Assembly (NCBI GenBank): GCA_021740645.1
Contig: JAIOZL010000017.1
Location: 1-64,000, forward strand
DNA length: 64,000 nucleotides
Reading direction: 5' to 3'
Origin: Bacteroidales bacterium
GTDB lineage: Bacteria; Bacteroidota; Bacteroidia; Bacteroidales; JAADJA01
Shown here: positions 33,716-53,382 of the stretch, piece after piece
Position numbering within the stretch: the stretch's first letter is position 1
Layout of the letters: each line of letters starts with the position of its first letter
The notes under the pieces: model-generated
What the model saw: the letters and a program-made list of their open reading frames with translations, nothing else
What the model was told of the DNA's origin: nothing
The model's database searches: none
Translations under genes and position numbers: made by a program

Positions 33716-35356
33716 TCAGCCTTCCTGGTAACAGCGTACCCAATCTATTTCCATTGAAGCAGGTAATCCACTACCGTCGGTTTTACCGGTAATAGAGGAG
33801 CTGAAAACAAGGTACATTTCTTCATGCGGAATTCCATGGGTTTGTTCATTCACCACCACCTCATTGATTTTCCATATAAGCTTATCTTTGGTCCAGATGA
33901 GGGTATAGATAAAGAAATCCTGTGAAACATCCAGTCCTGAAAATTCTGCCATCTTTTTTTCCAGGCTGTCCTTTTTTGATATGTCTCCATAAACGTTGCC
34001 CACGTTAATTTTGGTCTTTTTCTTATCGAGTTTTAAAATATCAACATGGGGGAGGTTTTTTTCAGAAGCCATCCAAAAATTATAATTCACAGGTTTGGCG
34101 TAGTTCACTTTTATTTTAGCTTCCACTTTCCCATATTTTAGCCTGTAGGATTTTGCAGTGCTCACTAAGCCGGTGGTAAAGTCAAATTTTTGTGGAACAA
34201 ATCCAAAGGGAAGCTGCCATTTTTTTCCTTCGATGCTTTCCCTTTTGGTCATAATTTTTAATGTGCCCTGTGTTTCGATGTTGGCTCCATCAGTGGGAAA
34301 TGCCTTATCCTGGTCGAGGGCATAAGCACCGTTCATTAACTTATCGCCCCAATAATAGCGGGTCATCCATTTGTCGGTATCCAGTTTGCCACCTGTGAAA
34401 TCATCTTCAAAAACTACTTTCCACTTTTTAAGGCTGTTAAATTTACTGGAATCTTTAAGTTCGAGATACCATTTATATTTTTTGCTGCTTTTGAAATCTT
34501 CATGCTCCTTGATTTTAGCCTTTTCTGCCGCCTCACTTTCAGAAAGGCCAGCCAATAGTTCTTTGTGTTCAGAAGAGGCCAGGTATTTTTCAAGCTCAAT
34601 ATAATCAGCTAGTTCTTTTGAGTTTTTAAACGATACAAAATCTTTGTACTTTGTTGAATCTTTAAATTTGAAATAAAATTTAATGGGTTTTGATTTGCTA
34701 AGTAGTTTATATTCTTTCTCCTGTTTCTCAATTTCTGCCAGCTTGTTGTTTACAAAATCTTTACGCTCTTTGAATTGGCCCGACTCAATCTCTTTGGTGA
34801 GCTTTTCAAATTCAACGACTTCACTGGTTTTTTCAACCTTATCATTTTCTCCCGCACTTAAATATTTTTTAACTGCCTTATTTTTTTCCAGCTTCTCAAA
34901 TTGTTTTTCCTTGTTGTGTATCGATGTTTTTTCTTTGGTTAGTTTGTTTTTATCATTCGCGAAGTTGGCTGAATTTACGATCTCTTTAAGTTCCTCATAA
35001 CTCTCTAAATCTTCCGACTTACTTATTTTAGTAAAATCTGCTAATTTTTGCGAAGCTTTAAACTTAAAGAAGCTTTGGAATTTTTTAGATTTCTTTTGGT
35101 TTTCAAAGAGTTTTATTTTACCCTCTTCGGCTGTTTTTTCTTTTTCTATTTTGTTATATAGATTTTTATGCTCATTGGAATCGAGATATTTCCCTAAATC
35201 ATTAAAGGCTTTTAATTCATCAGCGTCACTGAATTCGTTAAAATCATTAAACTCTTTTATCAGATCAGCCCTGTCTTGCTCGATTTTAGAGGTTTTGGGG
35301 ATGGAACTGAATTTTGAGAAAATAAAATACTTACTTCCAAATGCGAAATTAGCCAT
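33716..35356 (-). CDS. Repeat-containing protein with C-terminal GH16/concanavalin-A-like domain, probably non-catalytic
   Basis: No signal peptide; residues ~20-310 are Lys/Glu/Phe-rich repeats; residues ~313-546 GH16-like (VVFEDDFTGGKLDTDKW ... YGKVEAKIKVNYAKPVNYNFWMAS ... ASMEIDWVRCYQEG). Confidence 0.75.
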   Translation of the reverse strand: MANFAFGSKYFIFSKFSSIPKTSKIEQDRADLIKEFNDFNEFSDADELKAFNDLGKYLDSNEHKNLYNKIEKEKTAEEGKIKLFENQKKSKKFQSFFKFKASQKLADFTKISKSEDLESYEELKEIVNSANFANDKNKLTKEKTSIHNKEKQFEKLEKNKAVKKYLSAGENDKVEKTSEVVEFEKLTKEIESGQFKERKDFVNNKLAEIEKQEKEYKLLSKSKPIKFYFKFKDSTKYKDFVSFKNSKELADYIELEKYLASSEHKELLAGLSESEAAEKAKIKEHEDFKSSKKYKWYLELKDSSKFNSLKKWKVVFEDDFTGGKLDTDKWMTRYYWGDKLMNGAYALDQDKAFPTDGANIETQGTLKIMTKRESIEGKKWQLPFGFVPQKFDFTTGLVSTAKSYRLKYGKVEAKIKVNYAKPVNYNFWMASEKNLPHVDILKLDKKKTKINVGNVYGDISKKDSLEKKMAEFSGLDVSQDFFIYTLIWTKDKLIWKINEVVVNEQTHGIPHEEMYLVFSSSITGKTDGSGLPASMEIDWVRCYQEG

Positions 35357-37703: not shown

Positions 37704-39512
37704 CTAGTCGAGAAGAATTCCCAGTCCGACCACACCTGGCCCTACATGGGTTCCTAATACAGGAGAAACGGAATTAACAAAGCGTGGTTTTAAACCTGTG
37801 ATCTGCTCCATTTCATTCACATACCAGTTGGCCCCTTCGGGATTATTTGCATGAGAAACGGAATATCCCCAGATTTTTTTACCATCCATTAATTTAGCCG
37901 CTTCTTCAATCACAAGTTTCATGGCTTGTTTTGTAGATGTTGGTTTTCCAAATAACTCAGCTTTGCCTTCCGCATTTACGACAACAATGGGTTGAACACC
38001 CATTAGTTTGCCGAGGAAGCCTTTTACCGTGCTCACCCTGCCGCTTTTTATCATATACTTCAACGACTGGGCGCTAACCATCAAATGGGCTTTGAGTTTC
38101 CAGTCCTCTATAGCTATTTTAAGGTCTTCATATGACAACCCGCTTTCTATCGCTTCAGCTGCACGCAGCACCATTAAACCCAACGCATTGGTAAGTTTAT
38201 TAGAACTAAAAACAGCAATATCAATATTATGACGCTCAGCTACTGCATGACCGGCTTTTTTGCTGTTGCTGAATGTGCCGCTCATTTTATCCGTAAGGTG
38301 GAGGCCGATAATGTTTTTGTAATGGCTTGCCAGGTAGCTGTATTTGTTGGTAAAATCCTTATAGGTTGGTTGGGACGTGGTGGGGTTATTTTTTGCCAAC
38401 TTTTGCAAGTGATAAAACTCATCCGGTGTGATGGTTACCGAATCGAGATAAAAATCCTTATCGAAATGAACGGTCAGGGGAACCACATGGATCTGGTATT
38501 TTTCGATAATATCCTGGGGTAAATCGCAGGTTGAATCTGTAATTAAAGCAGTATCGTATTTCCGGCGATGCACAATTTCACTCTGCATCAACATGTCGTC
38601 TACCTTTTTAAAGGTAATATTCCCCAAATCTTTAATCTCACTGAAAAGTTTAGCCGGCTCGTCGGTATGAATGTGCAGCCTGAGTTTTTTAGGTGAGCCT
38701 GCCACCACCACTGAATCCCCATAGGGCGCGATAACTTTGGAAAGTATCGACTTATTGTTCGGGCTTTCGTTTTCGAATGAGATCAAAGCCTCGGTGCAGT
38801 AACGGAAGCTTAATTCAACCTCATGGTCGTGAACCACTTCCTCAAATTCTTTTACCTTGGAAACATTCCGGGTCATGGCTAGTTTTTTCAGCTCTCCATG
38901 TTTAAAAAAGTCGATCATCCCTTCGAGGAATAAAACAAAACCTTTGGCACCGGCATCTACGACATGGGCTTTTCTGAGCACTTCAAGTTTTTTGGGTGTG
39001 TCCCTGAGTGAATCAGCTGCAGTCTGGTATGAATCAACGATCAATTCATTAAAATCCTGGAATTTATCTTTAATGGAATACACATATTCGGCCCATTCAC
39101 GCATTACCGATATCATGGTTCCTTCTACTGGGTTGGCGATGGCTTCGTAAGCATAGCGCACTGCCTTTTTGATGATCTCAGCAAAATCATTGATGGAAAG
39201 GTTATTGTTGTTGGGTATCTCATTGCTGAACCCATAAAGGAACTGGGCGAAAATAATACCTGAATTGCCGCGTGCACCTACGAGGGCCGCATCGGCCAGG
39301 GCATTGGCTGTAACTTTAATATTGTAAGTTGGAATTGCGGTATCGATGATCGACCGCATCGTTGAGGCAAGGTTGGTACCTGTATCCCCATCAGCTACGG
39401 GAAAAACGTTGATCTTGTTGATGACCTGGTAGTGCTCGAATATTTTCTGGGCACCCGCTATAAAGCTGTAATAAAAGCGCTTTCCGTCTAATTCGTTCCT
39501 GTTAAAATCCAA
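37704..39512 (-). CDS. DhaL (DAK2)-DegV fusion protein, FakA-like/FakB-like
   Basis: 602 aa; VFPVADGDTGTNLASTMRS (DhaL), GDSVVVAGSPKKLRLHIHTDEPAKLFSEIKDLGNI (FakA-middle-like), ALITDSTCDLPQDIIEKYQIHVVPLTVHFD (DegV). Confidence 0.92.
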   Translation of the reverse strand: MDFNRNELDGKRFYYSFIAGAQKIFEHYQVINKINVFPVADGDTGTNLASTMRSIIDTAIPTYNIKVTANALADAALVGARGNSGIIFAQFLYGFSNEIPNNNNLSINDFAEIIKKAVRYAYEAIANPVEGTMISVMREWAEYVYSIKDKFQDFNELIVDSYQTAADSLRDTPKKLEVLRKAHVVDAGAKGFVLFLEGMIDFFKHGELKKLAMTRNVSKVKEFEEVVHDHEVELSFRYCTEALISFENESPNNKSILSKVIAPYGDSVVVAGSPKKLRLHIHTDEPAKLFSEIKDLGNITFKKVDDMLMQSEIVHRRKYDTALITDSTCDLPQDIIEKYQIHVVPLTVHFDKDFYLDSVTITPDEFYHLQKLAKNNPTTSQPTYKDFTNKYSYLASHYKNIIGLHLTDKMSGTFSNSKKAGHAVAERHNIDIAVFSSNKLTNALGLMVLRAAEAIESGLSYEDLKIAIEDWKLKAHLMVSAQSLKYMIKSGRVSTVKGFLGKLMGVQPIVVVNAEGKAELFGKPTSTKQAMKLVIEEAAKLMDGKKIWGYSVSHANNPEGANWYVNEMEQITGLKPRFVNSVSPVLGTHVGPGVVGLGILLD

Positions 39513-39613
39513 GATGTGTTTTTTTATTTAGATTACTTCTAAATTTTTTGCAAAAATAGATATAATATTTTAAATATGATTTGCACCAATTATTTCTACT
39601 TAAGACAGGCTTT

Positions 39614-40348
39614 TTATTTTTCCTTGCCAAATTTTTTAAATACCAGGCTTTCTATTTTCCCGGAGTATTGCTTATCCAATGGAAATACTGTAATTTCAAT
39701 AAGGTAGTGATTGGCCGATTGTTCCCGGACAATTACTTCGGGCCCCTTTTTAACAGAGCCCCAGGGCATGGATAAAAGATAGGACTTTATCCTTTGAATG
39801 GTGTCTGCCTCGTTGTCTTCTTTTTTCATCTCCAACAAAAAAGAATAGGCACTGCTCTGGTCGGTACTTTCACTTTTAATGGCCGTTTGTTCGATCAGTT
39901 TATTATAAGGCAGATAAATTACTTTGTTGTCCTGCGATTCAATTTCAAGCGCATCCCACCTGAATTTTTTTATTTTCCCATTGGTTTTCCCAATTTTGAT
40001 CATATCACCCACACTAAATTTTCCGGATGCCCTGAATACAATTCCGGCAATCAGGTCCTTAAAGAAAAACCGGGATACCCAAACCAGGATAATAAAAATG
40101 GCGGCAAAAACGGCAATAGTGTAATAGGAGCGGATTTCGGCAAAACGAAATACATACCACGAAAAGAACAAAATCCACAGGACCAGTTCCACAACCGGGA
40201 ATATCCGGCCGGCCAGGGTATGTCGTTCCGGGTCTTTAAATATTACTGGCAAAAAATACCTTAGCCCGCGCATTAAGGCAAAAAGAACCATACCAAGGAT
40301 CAGAAAGCCTGTAAAAATGGTATTCCAGTTAGCCGCTTGTAACTCCAT
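39614..40348 (-). CDS. MscS-like mechanosensitive channel family protein
   Basis: 244 aa; N-terminal TM helices then FKDLIAGIVFRASGKFSVGDMIKIGKTNGKIKKFRWDALEIESQDNKVIYLPYNKLIEQTA, an MscS TM3/beta-domain pattern. Confidence 0.82.
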   Translation of the reverse strand: MELQAANWNTIFTGFLILGMVLFALMRGLRYFLPVIFKDPERHTLAGRIFPVVELVLWILFFSWYVFRFAEIRSYYTIAVFAAIFIILVWVSRFFFKDLIAGIVFRASGKFSVGDMIKIGKTNGKIKKFRWDALEIESQDNKVIYLPYNKLIEQTAIKSESTDQSSAYSFLLEMKKEDNEADTIQRIKSYLLSMPWGSVKKGPEVIVREQSANHYLIEITVFPLDKQYSGKIESLVFKKFGKEK

Positions 40349-40368
40349 GATCGTTTTATTAATTCTTT

Positions 40369-43300
40369 TTAGTTTCCTTTATCAAATTCGGTCATCAGGT
40401 ATTTTGCAATATGCACCTGTAAAAATTTATCAATGGCAAATATTCCCCCGGCCTTTTCATTTATTATCCCGGCCCGGCGAAGGTAATTAACCGTATAGTT
40501 TACTTTAATTTCTTCTTCGAGCAGAACATTACAAAGTTTTTGAACACTCAGCTGCTTATGCAACAAAAATTGCAAGAGGTAAATTTTTGTCTCTTTCGGG
40601 AGTTTTGTAAATACTGCCGTATCGGGTAAACGGGGACTTTGCAGAAGGATGGTATCATTCTTAAAATCGCTTATACCCGTTACCCAGGCAAGCAATGCAG
40701 CCCCGATATTCCCCCCTGAAAAATTAAACACCTGGTTGAATAGCCGTGCATATTGGGCCTGCGAAATATGGCCGGGTGTATTTTTTTCAATCTGTAATTT
40801 TAGTCCGCTGGTACGATGCCTGAACAATATGACCTCCTGGATTTCTTTTGATCCGAAAGGGCCAAGCTGAACCACCTGTAAGGCAAAATGCCCAAAAGGG
40901 TTGATCTGGTTAATTAATTTAAACACCCGCTTATTAAACACCAGGATAAAAAATACTTTATCACTGTAATGCCTTACCAGGTTAAAAACAGAATCGATTA
41001 CCACCAGTCCGTTTTCCGATCTTTCCCAAAAGAGTTCCAGGTCATCCAAAACCATCATGCTGTTTTCAGGAAGTTTGTCCATTATTTCGTGCACCGAACC
41101 ACCCATTCCGGTGGCCTCCTTTAAGTGTTCCAGGAAAGTATCCGGGTGAGCGGGCCCCGTGCCCGACGGATTGATGATATAGGTGGGATGATCCTTTTGA
41201 TTTTCGTTGACCAAGTAATTGGCAAAAAATGATTTACCACTTTTGGCATCGCCTGTAATTACAAGACAGCCCTTGATCCCTGCTTTGTAGCGGTTTATGG
41301 CTTTCCGGGCAAGTCCCAGTTCTTTTTGCCGGCCAAACCAGAACTCAGGCTGATAATTATACTGACTTAAAAATAGTTGTTGGTAATAAAAAGGTATCTT
41401 TTTAATGATTCCATTTTTAGGAGATACTTTCTCTTTGAAGTTAAGCATCTCATCAATCAGGTTAACATCTTTTGATTGGTCGTCGGTAACTTTTTTGGCC
41501 AACAGACGGGCTTCACTTTGAGAGTGCCAGAGATTGGCCTTTTGGTGCTGCACAAAATCCCTGATGATCCTCAGCCTGGTCTGAATAAACCTGTTTTCTT
41601 TATCGGCATCTTTTCGCACCAGGTATTTGTTGTTCTCAGATGCTTTCAACAAGCGGAATAAATGTAGCTCTGCACTTGTTTTGGTGTATAAAACCCGGAT
41701 GTTCTTTTTGTAAGTATCAAATTCGGTTTTAATGGCCTCAATGTTTACGTCTACTTTTTTGCGCTGATCGTTGGTAAATGCCTCAATATCTCCAAAATTT
41801 TCGTAATCTTCTTCCGGTACAAAAGTGCCCTTATCATTTTGGCGGCTTAAGTTGATAAGCCGGGCTGCGTCTTCAATGATTACCTGAAGTCCCTGGATGT
41901 TTTCGGCCATTTTGTTGGTATTGCTAACCAGGGGAGCAATCAATTCGTTTTGTATAAAATAATCCACTAACCGAAGTACGGGAATCTTTAAGGTTTCCTC
42001 GTCGGAGAATTGCCTGTTGGTTAATTCGTTAATTGTTTCTTCTGTAAAAACCTCAAGGTTGGCCGGTAACTGCCGAAGGATGGATTTGATATTACGAAAA
42101 GCTTTATCGGTAATTTTATTCAGGCTGAGTTGCAGACTTTGCGACTGGAGATTCGTCGCCGGAAGGCTTATTTTTTCTTCCTCCTGTTCTCCTTTTCCTT
42201 TTGGGGCAATTGATTGTTGTATCTGGTTTAGTCGCATAAACACCTGCTCATCGAGGATTTTATTAATCTCAAAAAGGCTTTGTTCGATGATTTTATACAG
42301 ACGGTATTCAACCAACAATAATTGCAATTCTGTATGGATGGATTTCGTCAATATCGATTGGTTGACCCCCCACTTCGAAGGAAGGGATTGAAGTTCTTTT
42401 CCGGCTTCCTTTATTTTTTTTCGGGCCTGGGCTTGGGCAAGAAGATTAGCCGGGTAATCCGATACAGCCTGACTGATATCATGTACACAACGGTTATCCT
42501 CTTTATTTAGCTGAAGTTCTATATCAACACTACTGCTTTCGATGATTGAAGTAAGTTGGTCAAGGTGGCTAAAAACATTCTGTTTTCCCAGAGTGATTAT
42601 TTCCTGCAGGTTGTCTTGTCCAATATTTTTTTCAATTACCTGGAAAGCATCGGTAACTGCATAGAGTAATTTTTGGAATTCAAAACTAAAGCTGATATTT
42701 AAGTTTCCGAACTGGAAAAAACTTTCCTTTGCCGATCCAAGCTTTCGCCCGGGTAAAATACCATTACAGATTTCCTTAAAATTAACAGCATATGGGATTC
42801 CCTGGCCCAATAGTTTTTGCTTATTGAATATACGCCTATTCATTTTAAGCAGTCGAACTTTCATGCCGTCGCCGGAATCGGGGTTTAAATCCTCTCGATT
42901 TAAAAAGATATTGACTTTCTCGGGGATGTCCTTCCTGATTTTATCTAATTCACTGTTCAAATAGGTGATCCCGGTTTCAAGGGTGTCCTGCGATTCGGAT
43001 AAAACGGTGGTTTGCATCTCCTCAAGTATCTTCCCAAGTTTGATTAGCAAGCCGGTTTTTAATTGAGACACGAGTTGAATTTGACTGCTACTATTGATCT
43101 TTCCGGATTTGTTTTCAAGCACGGCATAAGCTTTTTCAACTGACTGCCTTGCCAAATCTGTTTTATTGAGCCGGTAATCAAATATCTGTTTGAATGTGCG
43201 TTTATAATAATTTTTACTCAGGTTGTCCAGTTTTTCCAGCAAATGAGTACAAGCCTCGGCCAGTTCTGGTTTTTCGGGTAAAATGGTTTCTTTTAGTTTA

Positions 43301-45546
43301 ACAGGCCTTGTCTCCGATTCTTTAGTTTTGGTGGCTATGGGTTCTGTCACTTCACCTGACCCTACTTTTAGTTTTTTAAAAGACGAGGAGGCATCCAATA
43401 ACACCACGGTACCTATTCTTTCAAGCAATATATTGGTATTGGCAACAAACTTCGATTCTTCGTTTTCTTTAATGTCAGGTATTTCGAGAAAAACGAGGTC
43501 AGTAACGGCAGACTCAGCCTCAACGATTTCGTAAAAAGGTTTACGTTCAATCTGGTTATTGAGCACTTTAATTTCTGCATCTATTCGCATATTGTCAAGG
43601 ATATCATCCATTTTTTTATAGATGATCTCGCTACGCTCATTTAAATAATTTACAATGAGTACGCGTATTCTTGCCTGTCCCCAATCATCTGACATCACAA
43701 GCAATTTTGAGAGTGTTAAGGCCAGGTTGCCATGATTACTTTTGTCGCGAAACCAGATATCGATGGTTTTCTTTTTGCCAAACCCTACCCGTTTATCATA
43801 ACCCAGCATCACCACATTCAGGTCTAGTTCATACAGGTTATTAAGCATTTCCACAAAACGTACCGGGTCGTGTGTATGCCGGGCCCATCCCAGCATAACA
43901 GTATTGGGTTCAAGGCCTGAGAACCCATAGGTCCGCGATATCAAATCGATGCCTTCGTACACATCCTTCACTATTTGGCGGCGGGTAAAGACACCTTTTG
44001 CTGATTCTTCGCCAGGAACAGATTGATTTTTTTTGGGAAATAAGGCCCTGGCATCTTTATTTTCAATCAGGTCGAAATTAGAGAGAACCCCATGAAGGCC
44101 TACCAGGTCTTTACCCAGGTTTAAAAGATGTGGACGACGGTTGGTTCCACCACTAAAAAGCATGATATTGGGCCGCCAGTTTCGTTCTACTTCTTCGGCC
44201 TTGTCCATTTTGTCAAGGGCAGTCCGCATAAAAGTGGACCATACGCTTTGCCATACATCCCCATATTCAAGTTTAATTTGTTTCCGTTTTAAAATAAAAT
44301 ATATGGCCATCATAATGATGAGGGCTGCAAACATGGAAACCACATCCAATTGGAACATTACTCCAAAAGCAGCAATAAAACCGACCAACCCAATGTATCT
44401 GCTGATTTTGAATGAAGGCCTGAAATCAGTACTGGCCCAGCTTTCAAGGTAATAAGCGATATTGATAAACCCATAAGAAGCGAGGTAAAACATAGAAACG
44501 ACCCGTGCGATAACATTTAATTCACCGATCAGGATGCCTGCTTCGGCAATTATAAATATTACGATCAGGGCCACCCGTGGCTCATTATTGACTCCATAAA
44601 CCTTTGAAAAAAGCTTAGGCCCAATCTTGTCGGACGACATAGCCTGCAGGATGCGGGGCCCACCAAGAATACCTCCCAGGGCCGAAGAAAGGGTGGCACC
44701 CCAGATACCAGCCACAACCAGAGGGGTAAACCAGGCAAGTTTCATTAAAAAGTTGTAATCGTTGGTCAGAAGGTCGCGGTTAACAAAAAATGCTATGGCA
44801 ACGGCAAGCCCCACATAAATCACTAATCCTACCGTTATGGAAGCCATGGTTCCCAGAGGGATGGATTTTTTGGGGTCTTTTAAATCGCCAGACATGGCCA
44901 CTCCTGCGGTAAATCCTGTCACAGCCGGGAAAAATACCGCAAAGATCACAGCCAGGTCAATTTCTGAATTTATGGGATTTAATAATGGTGCATCAGGATG
45001 AAGGTCGGTATTCAACATAAATCCTACAAAAATTGAAACGAGGGAGAGGGCAATGGCCCCAAGAATATAAAATTGTGTTTTTATAGCCAATGAAGTGCTG
45101 ATAAAGGCGATGGCCACTAATACTAAAATAGCAGCTGTGCCAATGACCCTGTAGCCCATGAGGTTTTGTTCTAATCCAAGGAAATGAGCTACTGGTTCAA
45201 TACTTAAAAAGTTTTCAGCGAAACCTACCAGGTAAAGAGAAATACTCAGGGCAGTCCCCACAAAGAGAGTTATCCCAATTGCGCCACCCATTGGCAATCC
45301 TAAACTTCTGGATAATATATAGTAGATACCTCCGGCTTTAATTTTTTTATCTGTAGCTATGGAGGAAACACTTAATCCGGTGGATAGGGAGATCACATGG
45401 GCTAACAAGATAATAATTACAGTACTTACCAATCCTGCATTTCCGACTACCCATCCCAGGCGCATGTACATTATTACCCCCAGAATGGTTAAAAGAGAAG
45501 GAGTAAATACTCCAGCAAATGCCCCAAATTTTTTTGCTTTTGCCAT
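40369..45546 (-). CDS. SLC12/cation-chloride-cotransporter-like APC permease fused to a long helical region and C-terminal P-loop ATPase plus winged-helix-like segment
   Basis: 1725 aa. GVFTPSLLTILGVIMYMRLGWVVGNAG and AGGIYYILSRSLGLPMGGAIG (SLC12-type core); WRPNIMLFSGGTNRRPHLL and KKTIDIWFRDKSNHGNLALTLSKLLVMSDDWGQARIRVLIV (SLC12 C-domain); GDAKSGKS (Walker A, 41230-41253) and MMVLDDLELF (Walker B-like, ~41029-41058). Confidence 0.88.
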   Translation of the reverse strand: MAKAKKFGAFAGVFTPSLLTILGVIMYMRLGWVVGNAGLVSTVIIILLAHVISLSTGLSVSSIATDKKIKAGGIYYILSRSLGLPMGGAIGITLFVGTALSISLYLVGFAENFLSIEPVAHFLGLEQNLMGYRVIGTAAILVLVAIAFISTSLAIKTQFYILGAIALSLVSIFVGFMLNTDLHPDAPLLNPINSEIDLAVIFAVFFPAVTGFTAGVAMSGDLKDPKKSIPLGTMASITVGLVIYVGLAVAIAFFVNRDLLTNDYNFLMKLAWFTPLVVAGIWGATLSSALGGILGGPRILQAMSSDKIGPKLFSKVYGVNNEPRVALIVIFIIAEAGILIGELNVIARVVSMFYLASYGFINIAYYLESWASTDFRPSFKISRYIGLVGFIAAFGVMFQLDVVSMFAALIIMMAIYFILKRKQIKLEYGDVWQSVWSTFMRTALDKMDKAEEVERNWRPNIMLFSGGTNRRPHLLNLGKDLVGLHGVLSNFDLIENKDARALFPKKNQSVPGEESAKGVFTRRQIVKDVYEGIDLISRTYGFSGLEPNTVMLGWARHTHDPVRFVEMLNNLYELDLNVVMLGYDKRVGFGKKKTIDIWFRDKSNHGNLALTLSKLLVMSDDWGQARIRVLIVNYLNERSEIIYKKMDDILDNMRIDAEIKVLNNQIERKPFYEIVEAESAVTDLVFLEIPDIKENEESKFVANTNILLERIGTVVLLDASSSFKKLKVGSGEVTEPIATKTKESETRPVKLKETILPEKPELAEACTHLLEKLDNLSKNYYKRTFKQIFDYRLNKTDLARQSVEKAYAVLENKSGKINSSSQIQLVSQLKTGLLIKLGKILEEMQTTVLSESQDTLETGITYLNSELDKIRKDIPEKVNIFLNREDLNPDSGDGMKVRLLKMNRRIFNKQKLLGQGIPYAVNFKEICNGILPGRKLGSAKESFFQFGNLNISFSFEFQKLLYAVTDAFQVIEKNIGQDNLQEIITLGKQNVFSHLDQLTSIIESSSVDIELQLNKEDNRCVHDISQAVSDYPANLLAQAQARKKIKEAGKELQSLPSKWGVNQSILTKSIHTELQLLLVEYRLYKIIEQSLFEINKILDEQVFMRLNQIQQSIAPKGKGEQEEEKISLPATNLQSQSLQLSLNKITDKAFRNIKSILRQLPANLEVFTEETINELTNRQFSDEETLKIPVLRLVDYFIQNELIAPLVSNTNKMAENIQGLQVIIEDAARLINLSRQNDKGTFVPEEDYENFGDIEAFTNDQRKKVDVNIEAIKTEFDTYKKNIRVLYTKTSAELHLFRLLKASENNKYLVRKDADKENRFIQTRLRIIRDFVQHQKANLWHSQSEARLLAKKVTDDQSKDVNLIDEMLNFKEKVSPKNGIIKKIPFYYQQLFLSQYNYQPEFWFGRQKELGLARKAINRYKAGIKGCLVITGDAKSGKSFFANYLVNENQKDHPTYIINPSGTGPAHPDTFLEHLKEATGMGGSVHEIMDKLPENSMMVLDDLELFWERSENGLVVIDSVFNLVRHYSDKVFFILVFNKRVFKLINQINPFGHFALQVVQLGPFGSKEIQEVILFRHRTSGLKLQIEKNTPGHISQAQYARLFNQVFNFSGGNIGAALLAWVTGISDFKNDTILLQSPRLPDTAVFTKLPKETKIYLLQFLLHKQLSVQKLCNVLLEEEIKVNYTVNYLRRAGIINEKAGGIFAIDKFLQVHIAKYLMTEFDKGN

Positions 45547-45665
45547 GTAGATTGTTTTGCAGGATAAAAGTAGTAAATTTAATTAAGAGGAGAAAAAGAA
45601 CCTAAGAATGCCCTGTAGCTCCCTAAATTTAACTGCATGAGTGAAATAAAAATCCAAACCCAAAT

Positions 45666-46064
45666 CTATTGGGTTTTTATGTTACTTAATTTTTTTATGA
45701 TTAAGGTTGCCAAAAATGCCTCAAGAAAACTTAAGGGGATAGCAAAATATAAAATGCCTAAAGGCAAAACACCCATATTCCAGGTTACTACCCACATCAA
45801 AACAAAGCCTACAAACCAGGAGAGAAAAGTTGTTGGCCAAAGTGAAAATTTCCCGGAAATAATGTAAATGGCAATGGCAAATAATAGCGACCATAGCCCC
45901 CAAACAGATCCGTTTAGCGGTTCGGAGGGGAATATAAGCCCAAGCGAGTTGCAGTGTTCCGTCCAATACGACTTCAGGAGAAACTCATTTCTGACAAATT
46001 CAGAAATACTGATCCATATAGTGGCCAGAAGGATGGGTAAGATAGTTTTTTTAAGTACTATCAT
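45666..46064 (-). CDS. Small integral membrane protein of unknown function
   Basis: 132 aa with about 4 hydrophobic helices; start overlaps the upstream stop by 4 nt (ATGA). Confidence 0.65.
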   Translation of the reverse strand: MIVLKKTILPILLATIWISISEFVRNEFLLKSYWTEHCNSLGLIFPSEPLNGSVWGLWSLLFAIAIYIISGKFSLWPTTFLSWFVGFVLMWVVTWNMGVLPLGILYFAIPLSFLEAFLATLIIKKLSNIKTQ

Positions 46065-48559
46065 TTTTCAGATTCTTTAATTTTATTTTCAAGTTCTTTC
46101 AATTTGTCTCTCAATTCCTTAATCCTGAATTCCCTGCCTATAAAAAGTTTATTAAAACGCATTAATTCCTCGTTTTTCTTTTCGAGTTCAGTTGTTCTTT
46201 CAGCTACTAATTTCTCCAGGTTTTCATGGTGTTTTTTGATTTCCTCTGCGGCTTTCTTTTGCCGGGTAACATCCATTACCATTCCTATAATCATGTCGAT
46301 TTTACCCTGTGCGTTTTTCCGCGAAGTTAAGGCTAAATCGGCCCACATAATTTCTCCGTTTTTATGGATATATCTTTTCTCCAACCTAAAATCATTGATC
46401 TCTCCTGAAATTATTTTATTCACCATGTTTATTTCAAAGGGCATATCGTCAGGATGGGTAAACTGCCGAATATTCATTTTAATAATATCTTCACGACTAT
46501 GACCCAATAAAGCAAGAAATTCTTTATTCACTTCAAGGATGTTTCCCTCATTATCGCTAAGGACAATTCCTATATTTGAATGCTCAAAGATACCTTTGAA
46601 TTTTGCTTCACTTTCTTTAAGGGCAAGATCAGCCAGTTTCCTGTCTGTAATATCTTTTGAGATAATCTGAATACCCTTAACCTGTTTATTGTTTCCTAAA
46701 ATTCTGGTATAGGTTGACAGGAACCATTTTGTTCCTTCCTGCAATTGAACCTGATCTTCGTAATCTTTGCTTTTAGTTGAACCTGCTGCCAACTTTAACC
46801 TGTCCATATATTTTAAATAAACTGCATCTCCATATAACTCCCTAATGTTTTTCCCGACAAAATCTTCAGGTTTCCCTCCCATTAATTTTGCGGCCAGGTT
46901 ATTAAAGAGGATCAGTTTACCATTAAGATCCCAATATCCAATACCGGCACCAGCGCTTTCGAGTAATACCCGGTGTTTTTCTTCGCTTTCTTTTAATTTA
47001 ATTTCCGCTTGTTTTTGCTGAGTGATATCTTCAAATATTACACAAAATTTTTTATTGTTATCCCAGGGGCGGTATACCCTGCAATGATACAATTTGCCAG
47101 TGGGTTCATGAAATAATTCGAAGGTATCCGTTTTGCCTGTTAGCGCCACATTTCCATATCGCTTAATCCATTCTGGCTCCGTTTCCGGCCAAACCTCATG
47201 AACAGTTTTACCTTTTACTTCATTATTCTTTACTCCGGTTATATCTTCATAAGCCTTATTAATGTATTCGAAGCGATAGCTAATAAACTTACCGGATTTG
47301 TCAAATACCGATTCGAAGATTACAAAGGCATTGATCATACTGTTTAATAAATGACTTAATTCATTCCTGTTTTCAGAAAGGGCAAGTTCGGCAGTTTTGC
47401 GGACAGTAATATCTTTAACAAATCCTAAAAATCTGTCCGTAGATATTTTTACAGCATCAACTGTCCAAAAACGTATTTCACCTTTTTTTGTGACAAATCT
47501 TATTTCTGCACTTGCATATCCATCATTGGCTAATGACGAGAAATGTTGAATCCCTTTCTCAATATCTTCAGGGTGCAGCAGATCGGTAATACCCATGGAA
47601 AGTAATTCTTTTTTGGTGTATCCTGTAATTTTACAGGCAGCTTGATTAACTTCCTTATATTTTCCATTATCATCTGCAACAAAAACACCATCCGGTGCAT
47701 CTTCGATGTATGATCTGAATTTTTCTTCGCTTTCTCTCAGTTTACTTTCAATTTTCTTCTGGGGAGTAATGTCGGTGGCAATGCCACATACAGCGTAGAT
47801 AGTACCATCGTTGTTATAAAGTGGAATCTTTGAAGATAATACCGTATGCATGCCATCTGGATGAGGTACAAATTCCTCAAGTACCAATGGCTTTTTCTCA
47901 GCTATAACAGCCTTATCATGTTTTCGGAATTGGGTTGCCTGATCTTTTGAGAATATATCAAAATCAGTGAGACCCTGTATTTCAGCATTCGTTATTTGGT
48001 GTAGTTGCTCGAAAACTTTGTTGATGTATAAGTATTTTCCTTCAAGATCTTTGATAAAAACCGCCTGTGAGGTATTATCCAAAATACTACGGTATTTATT
48101 TTCACTTTCCCGCAGTGCTTCTTCAGCCTGCCTTGTTTCTGTAACATCAACTCCTGAACTTAATATCTCATAGAATGTACCGTTGTCATTCTTAAGAATT
48201 GAATTATGCCATGCAATTATACGTTCATTACCCTCTGCATTAATAACAGGGTTTTCGTAAAATTCCAGGGGCTCTAACTTTCCTGAACAAATATTATCAA
48301 AAACATTTTTAACTTTTTCCACCTGGTTTTTTGGCAGAAAATGTTCAAACCAATTCCTTCCCAGGATTTCGCTTTCAGGGTATCCCAGTACTTCAGTTGC
48401 TTTTTTATTTGCCAGTGTAACGACCCCATCCTTGTTAAGAACAATAAACATGTTCCCAGCTACACTTAGGTAATGTTGTGTTGGATTTTTCTCTAGTTCT
48501 GCGATCCTTTTTTTTAGGATTTTAATTTCCCTGATCAGATCTTCATATTTTTTTGCCAT
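46061..48559 (-). CDS. Multi-PAS domain sensory protein without a histidine kinase domain
   Basis: 832 aa; repeated PAS/PAC patterns (ESEEKFRSYIEDAPDGVFVADDNGKYKEVNQAACKITGYTKKELL; KGIFEHSNIGIVLSDNEGNILEVNKEFLALLGHSREDI); ends in coiled coil ERTTELEKKNEELMRFNKLFIGREFRIKELRDKLKELENKIKESEK. Confidence 0.9.
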   Translation of the reverse strand: MAKKYEDLIREIKILKKRIAELEKNPTQHYLSVAGNMFIVLNKDGVVTLANKKATEVLGYPESEILGRNWFEHFLPKNQVEKVKNVFDNICSGKLEPLEFYENPVINAEGNERIIAWHNSILKNDNGTFYEILSSGVDVTETRQAEEALRESENKYRSILDNTSQAVFIKDLEGKYLYINKVFEQLHQITNAEIQGLTDFDIFSKDQATQFRKHDKAVIAEKKPLVLEEFVPHPDGMHTVLSSKIPLYNNDGTIYAVCGIATDITPQKKIESKLRESEEKFRSYIEDAPDGVFVADDNGKYKEVNQAACKITGYTKKELLSMGITDLLHPEDIEKGIQHFSSLANDGYASAEIRFVTKKGEIRFWTVDAVKISTDRFLGFVKDITVRKTAELALSENRNELSHLLNSMINAFVIFESVFDKSGKFISYRFEYINKAYEDITGVKNNEVKGKTVHEVWPETEPEWIKRYGNVALTGKTDTFELFHEPTGKLYHCRVYRPWDNNKKFCVIFEDITQQKQAEIKLKESEEKHRVLLESAGAGIGYWDLNGKLILFNNLAAKLMGGKPEDFVGKNIRELYGDAVYLKYMDRLKLAAGSTKSKDYEDQVQLQEGTKWFLSTYTRILGNNKQVKGIQIISKDITDRKLADLALKESEAKFKGIFEHSNIGIVLSDNEGNILEVNKEFLALLGHSREDIIKMNIRQFTHPDDMPFEINMVNKIISGEINDFRLEKRYIHKNGEIMWADLALTSRKNAQGKIDMIIGMVMDVTRQKKAAEEIKKHHENLEKLVAERTTELEKKNEELMRFNKLFIGREFRIKELRDKLKELENKIKESEK

Positions 48560-48781
48560 GATAGACCGGTGATGTTAGATTTATAAAATTACTTTTTTTT
48601 TTAATAAGTAATCCTATGTTCGCTACAATCATTTGATCTATTCTTTTAATTGCATAAAATATAAGGTACATAATGCATAAGAGGTTCGGTGAAAATTTTC
48701 CTTTTAAGTAAATAATTAAATAGGTTTAGTTATTAATTCGGATAAAATTTCGTCGAATCAGATTGCAGTTGTTAGATTGTA

Positions 48782-49897
48782 CTATTTGTTTTCAATCCTC
48801 CCATCTGCATGTTTTGCAAAACGTCCCTGGTCAATGGGATGCACAGGGCCACTAACCGGCCAGGGCCAACCACCAAATTCAGTCCGTTGATAGTCATCAA
48901 AAGCCTGTTGAATTTCCTGTCTGGTATTCATTACAAAGGGACCATGCTGCACAACAGGTTCTGCTATGGGTTTGCCCTGAAGGATCAAAATATGGCTGTC
49001 TTCATCGCCACTTTCAATAATAATTTCCATGTCTGCAGGGATTTCAGCCGAATGGTAATTGTCAAGTTCGGCATCCCCAATTTTTAATTTATTACCTTTA
49101 TAAAAATAGATTGTCCGTATAATTCCTTCTGAAGCTTCAGGAAGTGTCCAGTGTGCCCAAGCTTCCATTTTTGCATTCCAGATTCCCACTTCATTCGTTG
49201 AATCAGCAGCCCAGGAATCTGGAGGGGGAGGTGGAGCAGAATACTGGCCCAAAGTTCCAGCTATTATTTCAACTTTGGTTTGTTTTCCATTTTCATCTGT
49301 AAGATCAAAAACCGGAATAGAATCAGCCCATAACATCTTAAAGTGAGGCTCCACAAATTTTTTGGCCTTGGGTAAATTAAGCCAAATTTGAAATAACTCA
49401 AGCGGATTTTCCTTGTCCTGATTGATCAGTGGGAACATTTCGGCGTGCTGTATGCCTTTACCTGCCGTCATCCACTGGGTATCGCCATGGCCATAACGGC
49501 CCGAAGCACCCAAAGAATCGGAATGATCGACCATCCCTTTTCGAACTACCGTAACGGTTTCAAACCCCCGATGCGGGTGGCTTGGAAAACCAGGAACTTT
49601 TTGTCCGTGATACATTCTCCAGCCATCTTTTATTAAAAAATCCTGGCCAATCTGTCTTCCTTTCAAATGTCCGGGATCAGGACCCATATTTGCATTCCCT
49701 TTTGGGAAAAAATCTTCATGGTGTACGCAAAAAAGAAAAGGATCAGAGGTTTCCCACTGAAAGCCTAATGGTTTGATGTTTTTTACTTCAGGTGTATTCA
49801 TTCCATTGATTTTTGTTGATGAAATTCCTTTAAGGCCTCCCAGGGCAGTGGAAGAGGATACCGCTATTATCTTCTTAATAAAACTTCTCCGGTTTTT
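48782..49897 (-). CDS. Pirin family protein with Tat-like signal peptide
   Basis: MKNRRSFIKKIIAVSSSTALGG (RRSFIK) then pirin cupin motifs FPSHPHRGFETVTVVRKGMVDHSDSLGASGRYGHGDTQWMTAGKGIQHAEMFP. ORF opens at 49927; start at 49897 preferred. Confidence 0.9.
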   Translation of the reverse strand, partial: KNRRSFIKKIIAVSSSTALGGLKGISSTKINGMNTPEVKNIKPLGFQWETSDPFLFCVHHEDFFPKGNANMGPDPGHLKGRQIGQDFLIKDGWRMYHGQKVPGFPSHPHRGFETVTVVRKGMVDHSDSLGASGRYGHGDTQWMTAGKGIQHAEMFPLINQDKENPLELFQIWLNLPKAKKFVEPHFKMLWADSIPVFDLTDENGKQTKVEIIAGTLGQYSAPPPPPDSWAADSTNEVGIWNAKMEAWAHWTLPEASEGIIRTIYFYKGNKLKIGDAELDNYHSAEIPADMEIIIESGDEDSHILILQGKPIAEPVVQHGPFVMNTRQEIQQAFDDYQRTEFGGWPWPVSGPVHPIDQGRFAKHADGRIENK

Positions 49898-50088
49898 CAT
49901 TGATTGTTTTTCTTGCTTAATTAACAAATTAATACCGGGGCTTGTTTAAGGGTTATTTTATTTACTATGGAAATATTATTGAATATTTTGTCAAGCTGAG
50001 GCTATTCGCATAAATCCTTATATGCAGTTTAAGACTTCTTAAATTAAGAATCTTCGTAAAATCTATAAAGATTAGAAATGAAATTAAA

Positions 50089-50117
50089 AACCCGCAAAAA
50101 TTTCTTATTTGCGGGTT
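50089..50117 (-). terminator. Rho-independent terminator downstream of the tricorn-like protease
   Basis: AACCCGCAAA (50089-50098) pairs perfectly with TTTGCGGGTT (50108-50117); minus strand continues TTTTTAATTT. Confidence 0.88.
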
Positions 50118-50136
50118 CTGTATATATTGTAGGTTT

Positions 50137-53100
50137 CTATTTACTCTTATCCGGGTATTCCGGTACACCCGGCAAATCTTCCGGCCATTCTTTCAGTTGA
50201 TCAAGGGCAACCTGAATAGCCTTATTCAATTGTTCGTCAATCCCTTCATATTCTTTGGCAGGATCATTTTCTAATTCTATATCCGGATCCACCCCATAAC
50301 CCTCAATTACAAACTTGCTTCCGTCGCGATGGTAACTTGAAAACTCCGGTTTACGAAGGTCGCCACCATCAATAAAGGGTAAAGATCCTCTTATACCCAC
50401 AACACCACCCCACGAACGAGTTCCGATGATGGTGCCCATATTAAGGGTTTTAAATTGGTACGGGAATAAATCGCCATCGGAAGCTGAGTATTTATCAATC
50501 AGCATAACTTTAGGGCCGTAATGCAAACCTGCAGGACTGGTATAGGGTGTTCCGTTGCGGCTGACACGCATAAGAGTCAACTCGCGGCGCAGACGCTCTA
50601 TGATCATAGGGCTTACATTCCCTCCTCCATTGCCGCGATCGTCAATAATAAGGGCTTTCTTTCTGAGCTGGGGATAATAATACTTAATAAATTCATTCAA
50701 CCCCTGGGCACTCATATCAGGTATGTGGATGTATCCCACCTGGCCATCAGTAGCTTCCGAAACTTTTTCGATATTGTTTTGTACCCAATTATAATAATAC
50801 AGTTTACTTTCATCTGAAATCGGCTCAATAATTATCTTTCTACCTCCTTCAGTTGCTTTAGCGTTAATTGTCAGTTCAACCTGAACTCTGGCTTTTCCTA
50901 CAAGCGATTCGTAGATATCTTTCATCTTATTAGTGGGTTTGCCATTAACTGCTGTAATAAAATCACCTTCTTTTACATCCACGCCAACTTCAGTCAATGG
51001 GGATTTTTTGGAAGAGGTCCAGTTTTCCCCTTTCAGAATTTTATCTATCCGGTAATATCCTGACGCATCGCGGCTAAGCCTGGCGCCAAGTAAGCCTGTT
51101 TTAATCCTTTCAGGTGAGGGTTTGTCGCCTCCGCTGATATAGGCATGACCCACACTCAGTTCACCTATCATTTCACCAATAATATAATTCAAGTCATTAC
51201 GATCGTTTATCCAGGGAACTAGGGGTTCATATTTGGTATGGATAGCTTTCCAATCCACCCCGTGCATACCCGGATCATAAAAGAAATCACGCATTTGTCT
51301 CCAGGCTTCATTGTAAATCTGGTTCCACTCTTCTTTCAGGTTTACCAGGGCTTTCATATTTGAAAGGTCAACAAAATCAGAAAGTTTTATATTTCCTTTG
51401 GGAAGATCGATAATACCGTACTTGTCTTTGTCATTAATTACCATCTTTTTATTATCGGCCGAAATAATATAACTGCCATACTCTCCAATTTCGGTTTCCT
51501 TCAGCTTCTTCAGGTCATAAAGCATTAATTTGGTGGATTCCTGTTTGCTGTTTCCCATACAATAATATACACTGTTATCAATGCAGCTAATGTTGTAATA
51601 GTAGCCGGCTTTTCCCGGTATGTCTAAAATGCGGTCGATTATCCCATTAAAATCAATGGTGATAGTTTCTTTATCGGCTTCCGGTTTTTTATCATCTTCC
51701 TTTTTAGGTTCTTCTTTTTTCTCCTCTTTTATTTCTACTTCATCGTTTACCGGTTGAAATGGATTTTCGACATCCTTTCGGAGGGTTACAAAATAGAGCT
51801 TTTGCATATCCTGATATGCATGGTTCCATTCGACCCATGAATAGATTGGGTTGAAATCACGGGAGGAGCTAAAAAATAAATAATCACCATTGGAGCTAAA
51901 AGAAGGATTTCCTGAGCTATACCAGCCATCCGTTACAGCATTTTTTTCTTTTGTATCCAGATTATACACCCATATCCGGGTCATTTCTTCTTTAGCAGGC
52001 AGCGGATAGGTAATCCATTTACTGTCTGGTGACCAGTTATAGCTTCCTAATTCTCCATCAGGTGAATGTTCAACGAGCGTAATTTCTTTCGTTTCTACAT
52101 TTACATACTGAAGGTTCTGATTCCTGTCTGACCATAAAAGCTTTTTACTATCAGGGGACCAAATAGGATTATACTTGTAGTTTGAGCTATTGCTTGTAAT
52201 TTTAATGGCTGCCTCAGTACCATCCTGGTTTTGGATATAAATTTCATCCTCACCCGTACGATCCGATATATAAGATATGTATTTTCCATCAGGTGACCAC
52301 TCTACATTCCGGTCGTGTATCCCCGAAGATTCCGTCAAGTTTCTCGTCATCCCATGTTCAGCGGGTACCGTCCAAACATCACCTCTTGCTCCAAAAGCGA
52401 GGCGTTTCCCATCAGGCGAAATAGCCCAGCTATCAATTGATTTAGAAGCATCTTTAAATACTTCACGGCTTCCATATAAATCCTCTGCAATTTGAATATT
52501 AATTTTATTTGCTTGCTGAGTTTCAATATTGAAATTATAAAGATATCCGCCATTTTCATAGATGATGGAGTTGTTTCCGGCCGAAGGAAATTTAATATCA
52601 TAATTGGTGTATTGAGTAACTTTTCTTGTTTCACCTGTTTCAAGATTGTAGGCAAATAAATTCATGGTACGATCGCGGTCGGAGAGAAAATAAATCTCGT
52701 TCCCAATCCACATTGGAATAATATCCTGAGCTTCGTTATTGGTTATATTAATAGTTTCTTTGGTTTTAAAATCATAAATCCACACATCATCGGCCATGCC
52801 TCCCTTATAATATTTCCAGGTACGGAATTCCCTGAAAACCCTGTTGTAAGCAAGTTTTTTCCCATCCGGTGAATAAGAACAAAAGCCTCCTGCCGGCAAG
52901 GGAAGTTCTTCAGAAAGGCCACCATTAATATTTGCTAGAAAAAGTTGTCCTTTAAACGAATTAAACGATTGTTTACGCGAGCGGTAAACAATATTTTCGT
53001 TGTCCTTCCATGACATTACAATATTATTCGGCCCCATTCTGTCGGAAATGTCATCCCTGCCCAATGTAGCTGTATAAGTTAAACGAACAGGTTTACTTCC

Positions 53101-53382
53101 ATTCGCATCCATAAGGTATACTTCCGTATTGCCATCATATTGGGCAGTAAATGCCACATGTTGGCCATTAGGTGAAAATCGTGCAAACATTTCATAACCA
53201 TCATCGTTTGTCAATTTTCGGGCAATGCCCCCATCTAAACCGCAGGTGTAAAGATCACCAGCATAAGAAAAAATTACCTGGTTATTATGAATAGTTGGAA
53301 ACCTTAAAAGACGGGCTTCATCTTGTGAATAACCCAATTGCAAACAAATGGATAATGCAATTAAAAATAATACTTGTTTCAT
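50137..53382 (-). CDS. Tricorn-like S41 family peptidase (beta-propeller, PDZ, protease)
   Basis: 1081 aa; signal peptide, many WSPDGK/SPDSK propeller repeats, PDZ-like EVGVDVKEGDFITAVNGKPTNKMKDIYESLVGKA, S41 core KALIIDDRGNGGGNVSPMIIERL and YSASDGDLFPYQFK. Confidence 0.95.
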   Translation of the reverse strand: MKQVLFLIALSICLQLGYSQDEARLLRFPTIHNNQVIFSYAGDLYTCGLDGGIARKLTNDDGYEMFARFSPNGQHVAFTAQYDGNTEVYLMDANGSKPVRLTYTATLGRDDISDRMGPNNIVMSWKDNENIVYRSRKQSFNSFKGQLFLANINGGLSEELPLPAGGFCSYSPDGKKLAYNRVFREFRTWKYYKGGMADDVWIYDFKTKETINITNNEAQDIIPMWIGNEIYFLSDRDRTMNLFAYNLETGETRKVTQYTNYDIKFPSAGNNSIIYENGGYLYNFNIETQQANKINIQIAEDLYGSREVFKDASKSIDSWAISPDGKRLAFGARGDVWTVPAEHGMTRNLTESSGIHDRNVEWSPDGKYISYISDRTGEDEIYIQNQDGTEAAIKITSNSSNYKYNPIWSPDSKKLLWSDRNQNLQYVNVETKEITLVEHSPDGELGSYNWSPDSKWITYPLPAKEEMTRIWVYNLDTKEKNAVTDGWYSSGNPSFSSNGDYLFFSSSRDFNPIYSWVEWNHAYQDMQKLYFVTLRKDVENPFQPVNDEVEIKEEKKEEPKKEDDKKPEADKETITIDFNGIIDRILDIPGKAGYYYNISCIDNSVYYCMGNSKQESTKLMLYDLKKLKETEIGEYGSYIISADNKKMVINDKDKYGIIDLPKGNIKLSDFVDLSNMKALVNLKEEWNQIYNEAWRQMRDFFYDPGMHGVDWKAIHTKYEPLVPWINDRNDLNYIIGEMIGELSVGHAYISGGDKPSPERIKTGLLGARLSRDASGYYRIDKILKGENWTSSKKSPLTEVGVDVKEGDFITAVNGKPTNKMKDIYESLVGKARVQVELTINAKATEGGRKIIIEPISDESKLYYYNWVQNNIEKVSEATDGQVGYIHIPDMSAQGLNEFIKYYYPQLRKKALIIDDRGNGGGNVSPMIIERLRRELTLMRVSRNGTPYTSPAGLHYGPKVMLIDKYSASDGDLFPYQFKTLNMGTIIGTRSWGGVVGIRGSLPFIDGGDLRKPEFSSYHRDGSKFVIEGYGVDPDIELENDPAKEYEGIDEQLNKAIQVALDQLKEWPEDLPGVPEYPDKSK

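Follow-up and report, generated by a model that had tools for sequence, protein, structure and literature searches.

A 1725-aa open reading frame of the window (the whole 64,000-nt stretch of Bacteroidales DNA analysed here) joins a cation-chloride cotransporter (SLC12/CCC) to a soluble helical region and an AAA+ domain, and a gene 20 bp downstream on the same strand encodes an MscS-family protein. We propose, with a slight lean beyond even confidence, that the two genes form an ion-homeostasis unit in which an MscS-derived sensor acts through the AAA+ switch on CCC activity. The proposal is drawn because the helical+AAA+ module and an MscS-family protein are a constant pair that includes a transporter only in some lineages, and because the transporter-linked MscS proteins lack the pore pattern of the family. 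Sequence comparison establishes the domain composition, the operon linkage, the co-occurrence, two separate transporter fusions and the loss of the pore signature; the physical contact between the MscS protein and the module and the direction of signalling are what we infer.

Organization of the locus

The fusion is encoded on the minus strand (45546→40369) in a single uninterrupted frame with an ATG start, and consists in order of the SLC12/CCC transporter, ~620 aa of soluble helical sequence and, at the end, an AAA+ domain of Cdc6/Orc type that carries a winged helix (Table 1). The first-pass annotation, which gave a 1725-aa product at 40369-45546 and no strand, had read its parts correctly: an SLC12-type APC permease in the first ~430 aa, ~330 aa of SLC12 C-terminal domain, a ~620-aa helical stretch of no recognised family (residues ~740-1370 here) and a C-terminal P-loop module with Walker A GDAKSGKS, a Walker B-like LDDLE(LFW), found at residues ~1500-1504, and a winged helix. 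Three doubts that it attached to this architecture do not hold. A frameshift or the artificial joining of two genes is ruled out by the open frame and dozens of full-length homologues; complete homologues of the same architecture, whose phylogenetic spread it had wanted checked, number 23 distinct proteins in the first sets and 34 in later sets and come from many GTDB families; and the AlphaFold2 model of the C-terminus matches Cdc6/Orc1, a P-loop fold. The annotation ended at the edge of the reading frame and thereby overlooked the MscS-family gene at 39614-40348 on the minus strand.

Table 1. Features of the fusion gene and its downstream neighbour in the window
Feature	Coordinates	Strand	Evidence
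SLC12/CCC transmembrane domain, APC fold, residues 1-430	44257..45546	-	AA_permease, TIGR00930, NKCC1/KCC profile matches
CCC cytosolic C-terminal domain, residues 431-740, homologous to NKCC1/KCC C-terminal domain	43327..44256	-	TIGR00930, PDB profiles
Soluble helical region, residues 741-1380	41407..43326	-	AlphaFold2 model; profile-profile matches; no known family
AAA+ P-loop domain, Cdc6/Orc1-like, residues 1381-1650	40597..41406	-	AAA_22, AlphaFold2, Foldseek
Walker A GDAKSGKS, residues 1432-1439	41230..41253	-	
Walker B-like VLDDLE, residues ~1498-1504	41035..41055	-	
C-terminal winged helix, residues ~1651-1725	40372..40596	-	Predicted secondary structure; profile matches to winged-helix/HTH regulators
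244-aa short MscS-family protein	39614..40348	-	Pfam MS_channel_2nd; model and Foldseek; PDB profile

The surroundings of the locus hold several further features. DegV/FakA-like and tricorn-like protease genes flank the fusion at L048, at L051 and in the window (37704-53382). In two sister species the CCC fusion is immediately preceded by an additional, canonical MscS gene (L005:590-1444, L010:6077-6919); the DegV/FakA-like and tricorn protease flanks also occur in the window, which at this place has PAS and pirin genes. The former (46061-48559, minus strand) encodes an 832-aa protein with about six PAS domains, in which no kinase or output domain was found in Pfam, and the latter (48782-49927, minus strand) a pirin whose N-terminal extension looks like a signal for export; the usual site of pirins is the cytosol. 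Elsewhere in the window, a 546-aa protein (33716-35356, minus strand) combines a Lys/Glu-rich, repetitive N-terminal half of ~300 aa with a C-terminal glycoside hydrolase of family 16.

The transporter part

Residues 1-430 match AA_permease at 6e-48, and residues 2-755 match the K-Cl cotransporter model TIGR00930 at 5e-121 with a score of 405.6 bits, which lies under the model's trusted cut-off of 953.4 bits. The best PDB relatives are NKCC1 and KCC structures, with profile-match E values down to 1e-118, and the APC-fold transmembrane domain and the CCC C-terminal domain that mark the SLC12/CCC family are both present.

In human NKCC1 the ions are bound by S613 and S614 with A610 (Na+), by Y383, P496 and T499 (K+) and by Y686 (Cl-2) (PMC7889885). 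Alignment to this protein places A284/S287/S288, Y105/P207/T210 and Y358 of the window protein at the equivalent Na, K and Cl2 sites, and the side-chain positions (A/S/S, Y/P/T, Y) are thus conserved, as they are in 21 of the 23 complete CCC fusions; positions that contribute backbone only vary (NKCC1 N298 is T20 and W300 is L22). The N-terminal 740 residues are therefore predicted to be an NKCC-like Na+/K+/Cl- symporter, and these are presumably the ions that the fusion moves. Two other CCC fusions, L039:66-5024 (+) and L040:8967-14006 (+), have an intact Walker A motif and an adjoining short MscS gene and have apparently lost most of the NKCC ion-site residues, which suggests transport-dead, sensor-like versions, a tentative reading given the divergent alignment.

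The helical region and the AAA+ domain

No TM-like windows were found in residues ~741-1380, and AlphaFold2 (five sequences, mean pLDDT 67) models the region as long helices in antiparallel arrangement, into which two short beta elements are inserted; confidence in the structure models of this work is modest (pLDDT 67 for the tail, and 71). Matches of the region to apolipoproteins were rejected as an artefact of coiled-coil composition. A conserved (L/I)PFYYxQLF motif precedes the AAA+ domain, and the C-terminus scores 28.6 bits with AAA_22 against a Pfam cut-off of 27. The best Foldseek matches of the tail model are Cdc6/Orc1, ORC subunits, RuvB and TnsC (2qby, E 2e-8), the P-loop AAA+ fold is complete with lid and winged helix, and Walker A and Walker B are intact in the window protein.

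A Cdc6/Orc1-like fold with a winged helix would also suit a membrane-tethered, DNA-binding regulator that reports the state of the transporter or the MscS protein to transcription. Winged helices are, however, common structural parts of AAA+ and STAND proteins, most members of the family are free soluble proteins, and their constant partner is a membrane protein rather than an operon of targets that varies in content, all of which make such a regulator very improbable.

The MscS-family partner gene

The 244-aa product of the downstream gene matches Pfam MS_channel_2nd at 1.8e-10, and in a PDB profile comparison every one of its domains aligns with E. coli MscS. The model shows three TM helices, an MscS beta domain and a C-terminal alpha/beta domain, and yields Foldseek matches to MscS, YnaI and MscK. 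The beta domain and overall fold of the MscS family are thus present, but the pore-lining helix TM3a lacks the richness in Gly/Ala/Ser (0.22 small residues versus 0.50 in E. coli MscS), for which reason the product is called MscS-derived here and not an MscS channel.

Distribution and genomic adjacency

The module was sought by searching a profile of its AAA+ part (A2) against 395 genomes sampled from the Bacteroidota only, of which 370 are of good quality. It is present in 77 of these 370 genomes (about a fifth), mostly as a free protein of ~1000 aa. An MscS-family gene directly adjoins the module gene on the same strand at 69 of the 77 loci, representing 16 of 18 GTDB families, while roughly 800 other ORFs of these loci include 6 other MscS genes; neither these nor the co-occurrence counts below are phylogenetically independent. 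The eight loci with no adjacent MscS gene comprise three at contig ends, two (L155 and L158) with a short MscS-like membrane protein that apparently lacks the beta domain, and three true exceptions. Later searches yielded 60 further loci, 51 of them with an adjacent MscS gene (CPA2 fusions 10/10, free modules 15/16, CCC fusions 26/34). None of seven tail-less CCCs has an MscS neighbour, and set against both adjacency counts this rules out chance neighbours.

Co-occurrence was examined in 60 genomes, namely the window's own and those of its relatives. The short MscS, sought with its own profile (A3), is found in 20 of them, all of which have the CCC fusion, and 38 have neither (Fisher p 5.5e-14, a value that ignores relatedness). 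The fusion itself occurs in 22 genomes, in one as fragments only, and the two with no short MscS (G001, G007) are fragmented assemblies. Among CCC fusions, an adjacent MscS gene is absent for 4 of the 23 complete proteins of the first sets and for 8 of the 34 found later. When 12 genomes with non-adjacent cases, including one free-module exception, were checked, the short MscS was found elsewhere in 10 (G003, G032, G454, G936, G793, G976, G730, G831, G818 and G824) and was undetected in G751 and G854, both of which have a CCC fusion with no adjacent MscS gene. The window's genome additionally has a paralogue 34% identical to the fusion, with a short MscS gene behind it as well; a CCC that has neither the tail nor an MscS neighbour; and an unfused helical+AAA+ protein of 991 aa, whose gene overlaps that of a canonical MscS.

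A group in family f68 (L098, L101, L104, L106, L107, L108, L110 and L126) has only an AAA+ ORF of 300-430 aa that lacks the long helical region, and these ORFs directly adjoin a canonical MscS gene.

Architectures of the module

The module occurs in the following layouts: (a) a free module of ~930-1050 aa, then a canonical MscS; (b) a CCC fusion of ~1630-1790 aa, then a short MscS; (c) a CPA2 Na+/H+ antiporter fusion of ~1500 aa (PF00999, 7e-19), then an MscS-like gene, with a second antiporter-like membrane protein encoded upstream; (d) an operon (L144, L155, L157, L158 and L202) that encodes a module of ~750-820 aa, a short MscS-like protein (185-243 aa) and an unfused CPA2 antiporter; (e) an MscS upstream of a module of ~1050-1140 aa in which the Walker A lysine is mostly lost; and (f) a module fused to an unassigned TM domain, with TrkH, TrkA-like and another antiporter-like gene (L139). 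In the MscS-upstream clade (L140, L141, L143, L145, L146, L148, L151, L152, L154 and L159) the Walker A lysine is replaced by R, M and other residues, and these modules are probable pseudo-ATPases still tied to a canonical MscS; large ORFs beside L141 and L147 were discarded as likely chance ORFs of GC-rich DNA. The operon at L139:6289-15499, with antiporter-like, TrkA-like, TrkH, TM-fused module and MscS-family genes, looks like a complete K+ homeostasis operon.

In a tree of 101 AAA+ domains the CCC fusions and the CPA2 fusions fall in different well-supported halves, so the transporters joined the module at least twice, independently. Profile-profile comparisons align the helical region over its full length between CCC-fused, CPA2-fused and free modules (E 2e-19, 6e-16 and 9e-22), although the profiles include some of the AAA+ start and helical composition can inflate these values. 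Of the proposal in the first-pass annotation that the NTPase may act as a cytosolic gate, energy sensor or STAND-like switch on ion or osmolyte transport, the architecture and the idea of a nucleotide-dependent switch on ion transport stand; the ATPase, however, is not peculiar to the CCC transporter, since it belongs to a Bacteroidota-wide helical+AAA+ family that has an MscS-family protein as its constant partner and was fused to transporters at least twice.

A STAND-like NTPase beside a membrane protein is a common layout of defence loci, and a single weak nSTAND1 Pfam match (TM-fused homologue L139) points the same way, toward an anti-phage system with a membrane effector. The CCC and antiporter domains nevertheless have intact ion sites, the chromosomal neighbourhood is conserved between species of the genus, and the module is broadly distributed inside families. 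PADLOC returned no defence-family match for the window proteins and a best value of 0.013 for a free homologue, and we consider an anti-phage role scarcely credible.

Conservation of the nucleotide site

The Walker A lysine is kept in 76 of 99 family modules and lost in about 23 (~1/4). Each of the 25 CCC fusions compared retains it, and so do nearly all CPA2 fusions. The Walker B Asp is frequently E or N across the family, and the lid region has an invariant Arg and a near-invariant Trp and Asn, even in Walker-degenerate members. ATP hydrolysis is thus not a universal requirement, given that about a quarter of the family (no CCC fusion compared among them) lacks the lysine, and the retention of the lid residues in Walker-degenerate members suggests conserved nucleotide-dependent conformations. 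For the tail of the fusion, use of ATP hydrolysis is presumed. An energy sensor, as the first-pass annotation also suggested, would by itself leave both the linkage to MscS and this loss of the lysine unexplained.

The loss in about 23 of 99 modules, like the very long predicted helices, would fit a scaffold or assembly factor that serves the localisation, oligomerisation or quality control of MscS proteins or transporters, with no part in fast regulation. Such a factor is unlikely in view of the Walker A motif kept in all CCC fusions and nearly all CPA2 fusions and of the lid Arg, Trp and Asn kept even where the Walker motifs have degenerated.

The pore-helix signature

The pore signature is defined as the share of Gly, Ala and Ser over the 18 positions aligned to residues 96-113 of E. 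coli MscS; over the pore segment the reference sequence used is identical to PDB 2vv5 except for the A106V of that entry. Among the first loci the share is 0.39-0.56 for partners of free modules, 0.11-0.39 for those of CCC fusions, 0.11-0.22 for CPA2 and 0.25 for layout (d). The 60 later loci give 0.11-0.33 for CCC (n=26), 0.06-0.28 for CPA2 (n=10) and 0.39-0.50 for free modules (n=14); one low value initially classed as solo, L202, belongs to layout (d) and has its own CPA2 gene. When pooled, transporter-linked partners span 0.06-0.39 (n=67, mean ~0.2) and free-module partners 0.39-0.56 (n=76, mean ~0.44), a difference whose p-values ignore relatedness and for which the meaningful count is two or three separate origins. 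In the transporter-linked partners, the Gly/Ala/Ser-rich pore helix of the MscS family has given way to bulky side chains together with an (R/K)D pair that is conserved. Long branches are too numerous in the MscS tree for the loss of the pore to be dated.

The short MscS is probably mainly a sensor of membrane tension, cytoplasmic crowding or both and not a high-conductance valve, and it may still conduct. Were it a real channel of altered conductance, the AAA+ module could drive channel and symporter oppositely, such that release and uptake never run together. All MscS domains are indeed present, including the three TM helices, and free modules pair with canonical MscS. Against this, the Gly/Ala/Ser pattern is lost in every transporter-linked partner compared except the borderline L085, in two ATPase clades, and the beta domain is apparently lost in L155 and L158, which leaves this two-effector reading rather unlikely.

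Proposed mechanism

MscS senses membrane tension. In the proposed sensor-switch-effector unit, the MscS-derived oligomer would contact the helical/AAA+ module, a cytosolic switch whose AAA+ domain is borne on long helical arms, and the AAA+ domain would change its nucleotide or assembly state with the conformation of the oligomer. This change would in turn alter the activity of the covalently attached transporter, and salt uptake would follow turgor. In the commoner systems with a free module, the target of regulation would be a canonical MscS channel and not a transporter. Where a transporter is tied in, the effector would shift from channel to transporter and the sensing part of MscS would be retained, and the missing pore pattern of the partner is what such a shift would lead one to expect. 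The cytosolic cage of MscS is reported to sense crowding (Rowe 2014, as cited in PMC6174206), and the MscS cytoplasmic domain has a non-channel interaction in its binding of FtsZ (PMC4440785).

More broadly, and at somewhat less than even confidence, MscS relatives may have given up channel function and become sensors that relay to a CCC or a CPA2 transporter via a dedicated AAA+ module. Ion transport controlled by mechanical force or crowding in this way would be a class not described before and a bacterial counterpart of WNK-NKCC control, reached at least twice, once per transporter family.

Relation to known systems

The window protein shares its transmembrane domain, C-terminal domain and Na/K/Cl site residues with the SLC12 CCCs (NKCC1/KCC; TIGR00930), and neither a helical+AAA+ tail nor an MscS-family partner gene was found on any known CCC. 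The short MscS has in common with the MscS family (E. coli MscS, YnaI, MscK) the three TM helices, the beta domain and the C-terminal alpha/beta domain. With Cdc6/Orc1-type AAA+ proteins and STAND-like NTPases (AAA_22, AAA_16) the module shares the P-loop core, lid and winged helix, but it differs in its fixed ~600-aa helical N-terminal region, its MscS-family partner and its partly degenerate Walker motifs. In KtrA/TrkA RCK proteins and KefC a cytosolic nucleotide-binding part sets K+ or osmoregulatory transport by cell state, and the same is expected of the module; these systems, however, use RCK/KTN Rossmann domains and have no AAA+ domain or MscS-family partner.

Eukaryotic CCCs are controlled by WNK-SPAK/OSR1 phosphorylation, a crowding-sensing kinase path in animals (PMC11472293). 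It likewise couples crowding or volume sensing to NKCC-type uptake, but it is a non-homologous kinase cascade and the likeness is a functional analogy only. Control of CCCs by nucleotides would by itself be no novelty, because CCC C-terminal domains are known to bind ATP/ADP with no P-loop domain (PMC8280820). As family models for the module, Pfam offers only weak AAA matches to the free form and NCBIfam and PHROGs none, and no description of a bacterial CCC or MscS with a link to ATPases was found in the open-licence literature. As far as could be checked, the parts are known families and the assembled system is undescribed.

If the proposal is true, the unit would be a direct bacterial link from membrane tension or crowding to Na-K-Cl uptake and a simple two-gene model for kinase-free volume regulation of CCCs, and it would give a first role to MscS relatives that have probably ceased to serve as valves. 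The constant partner also provides a lead to the function of an unnamed family of ~1000-aa proteins present in about a fifth of the sampled Bacteroidota genomes.
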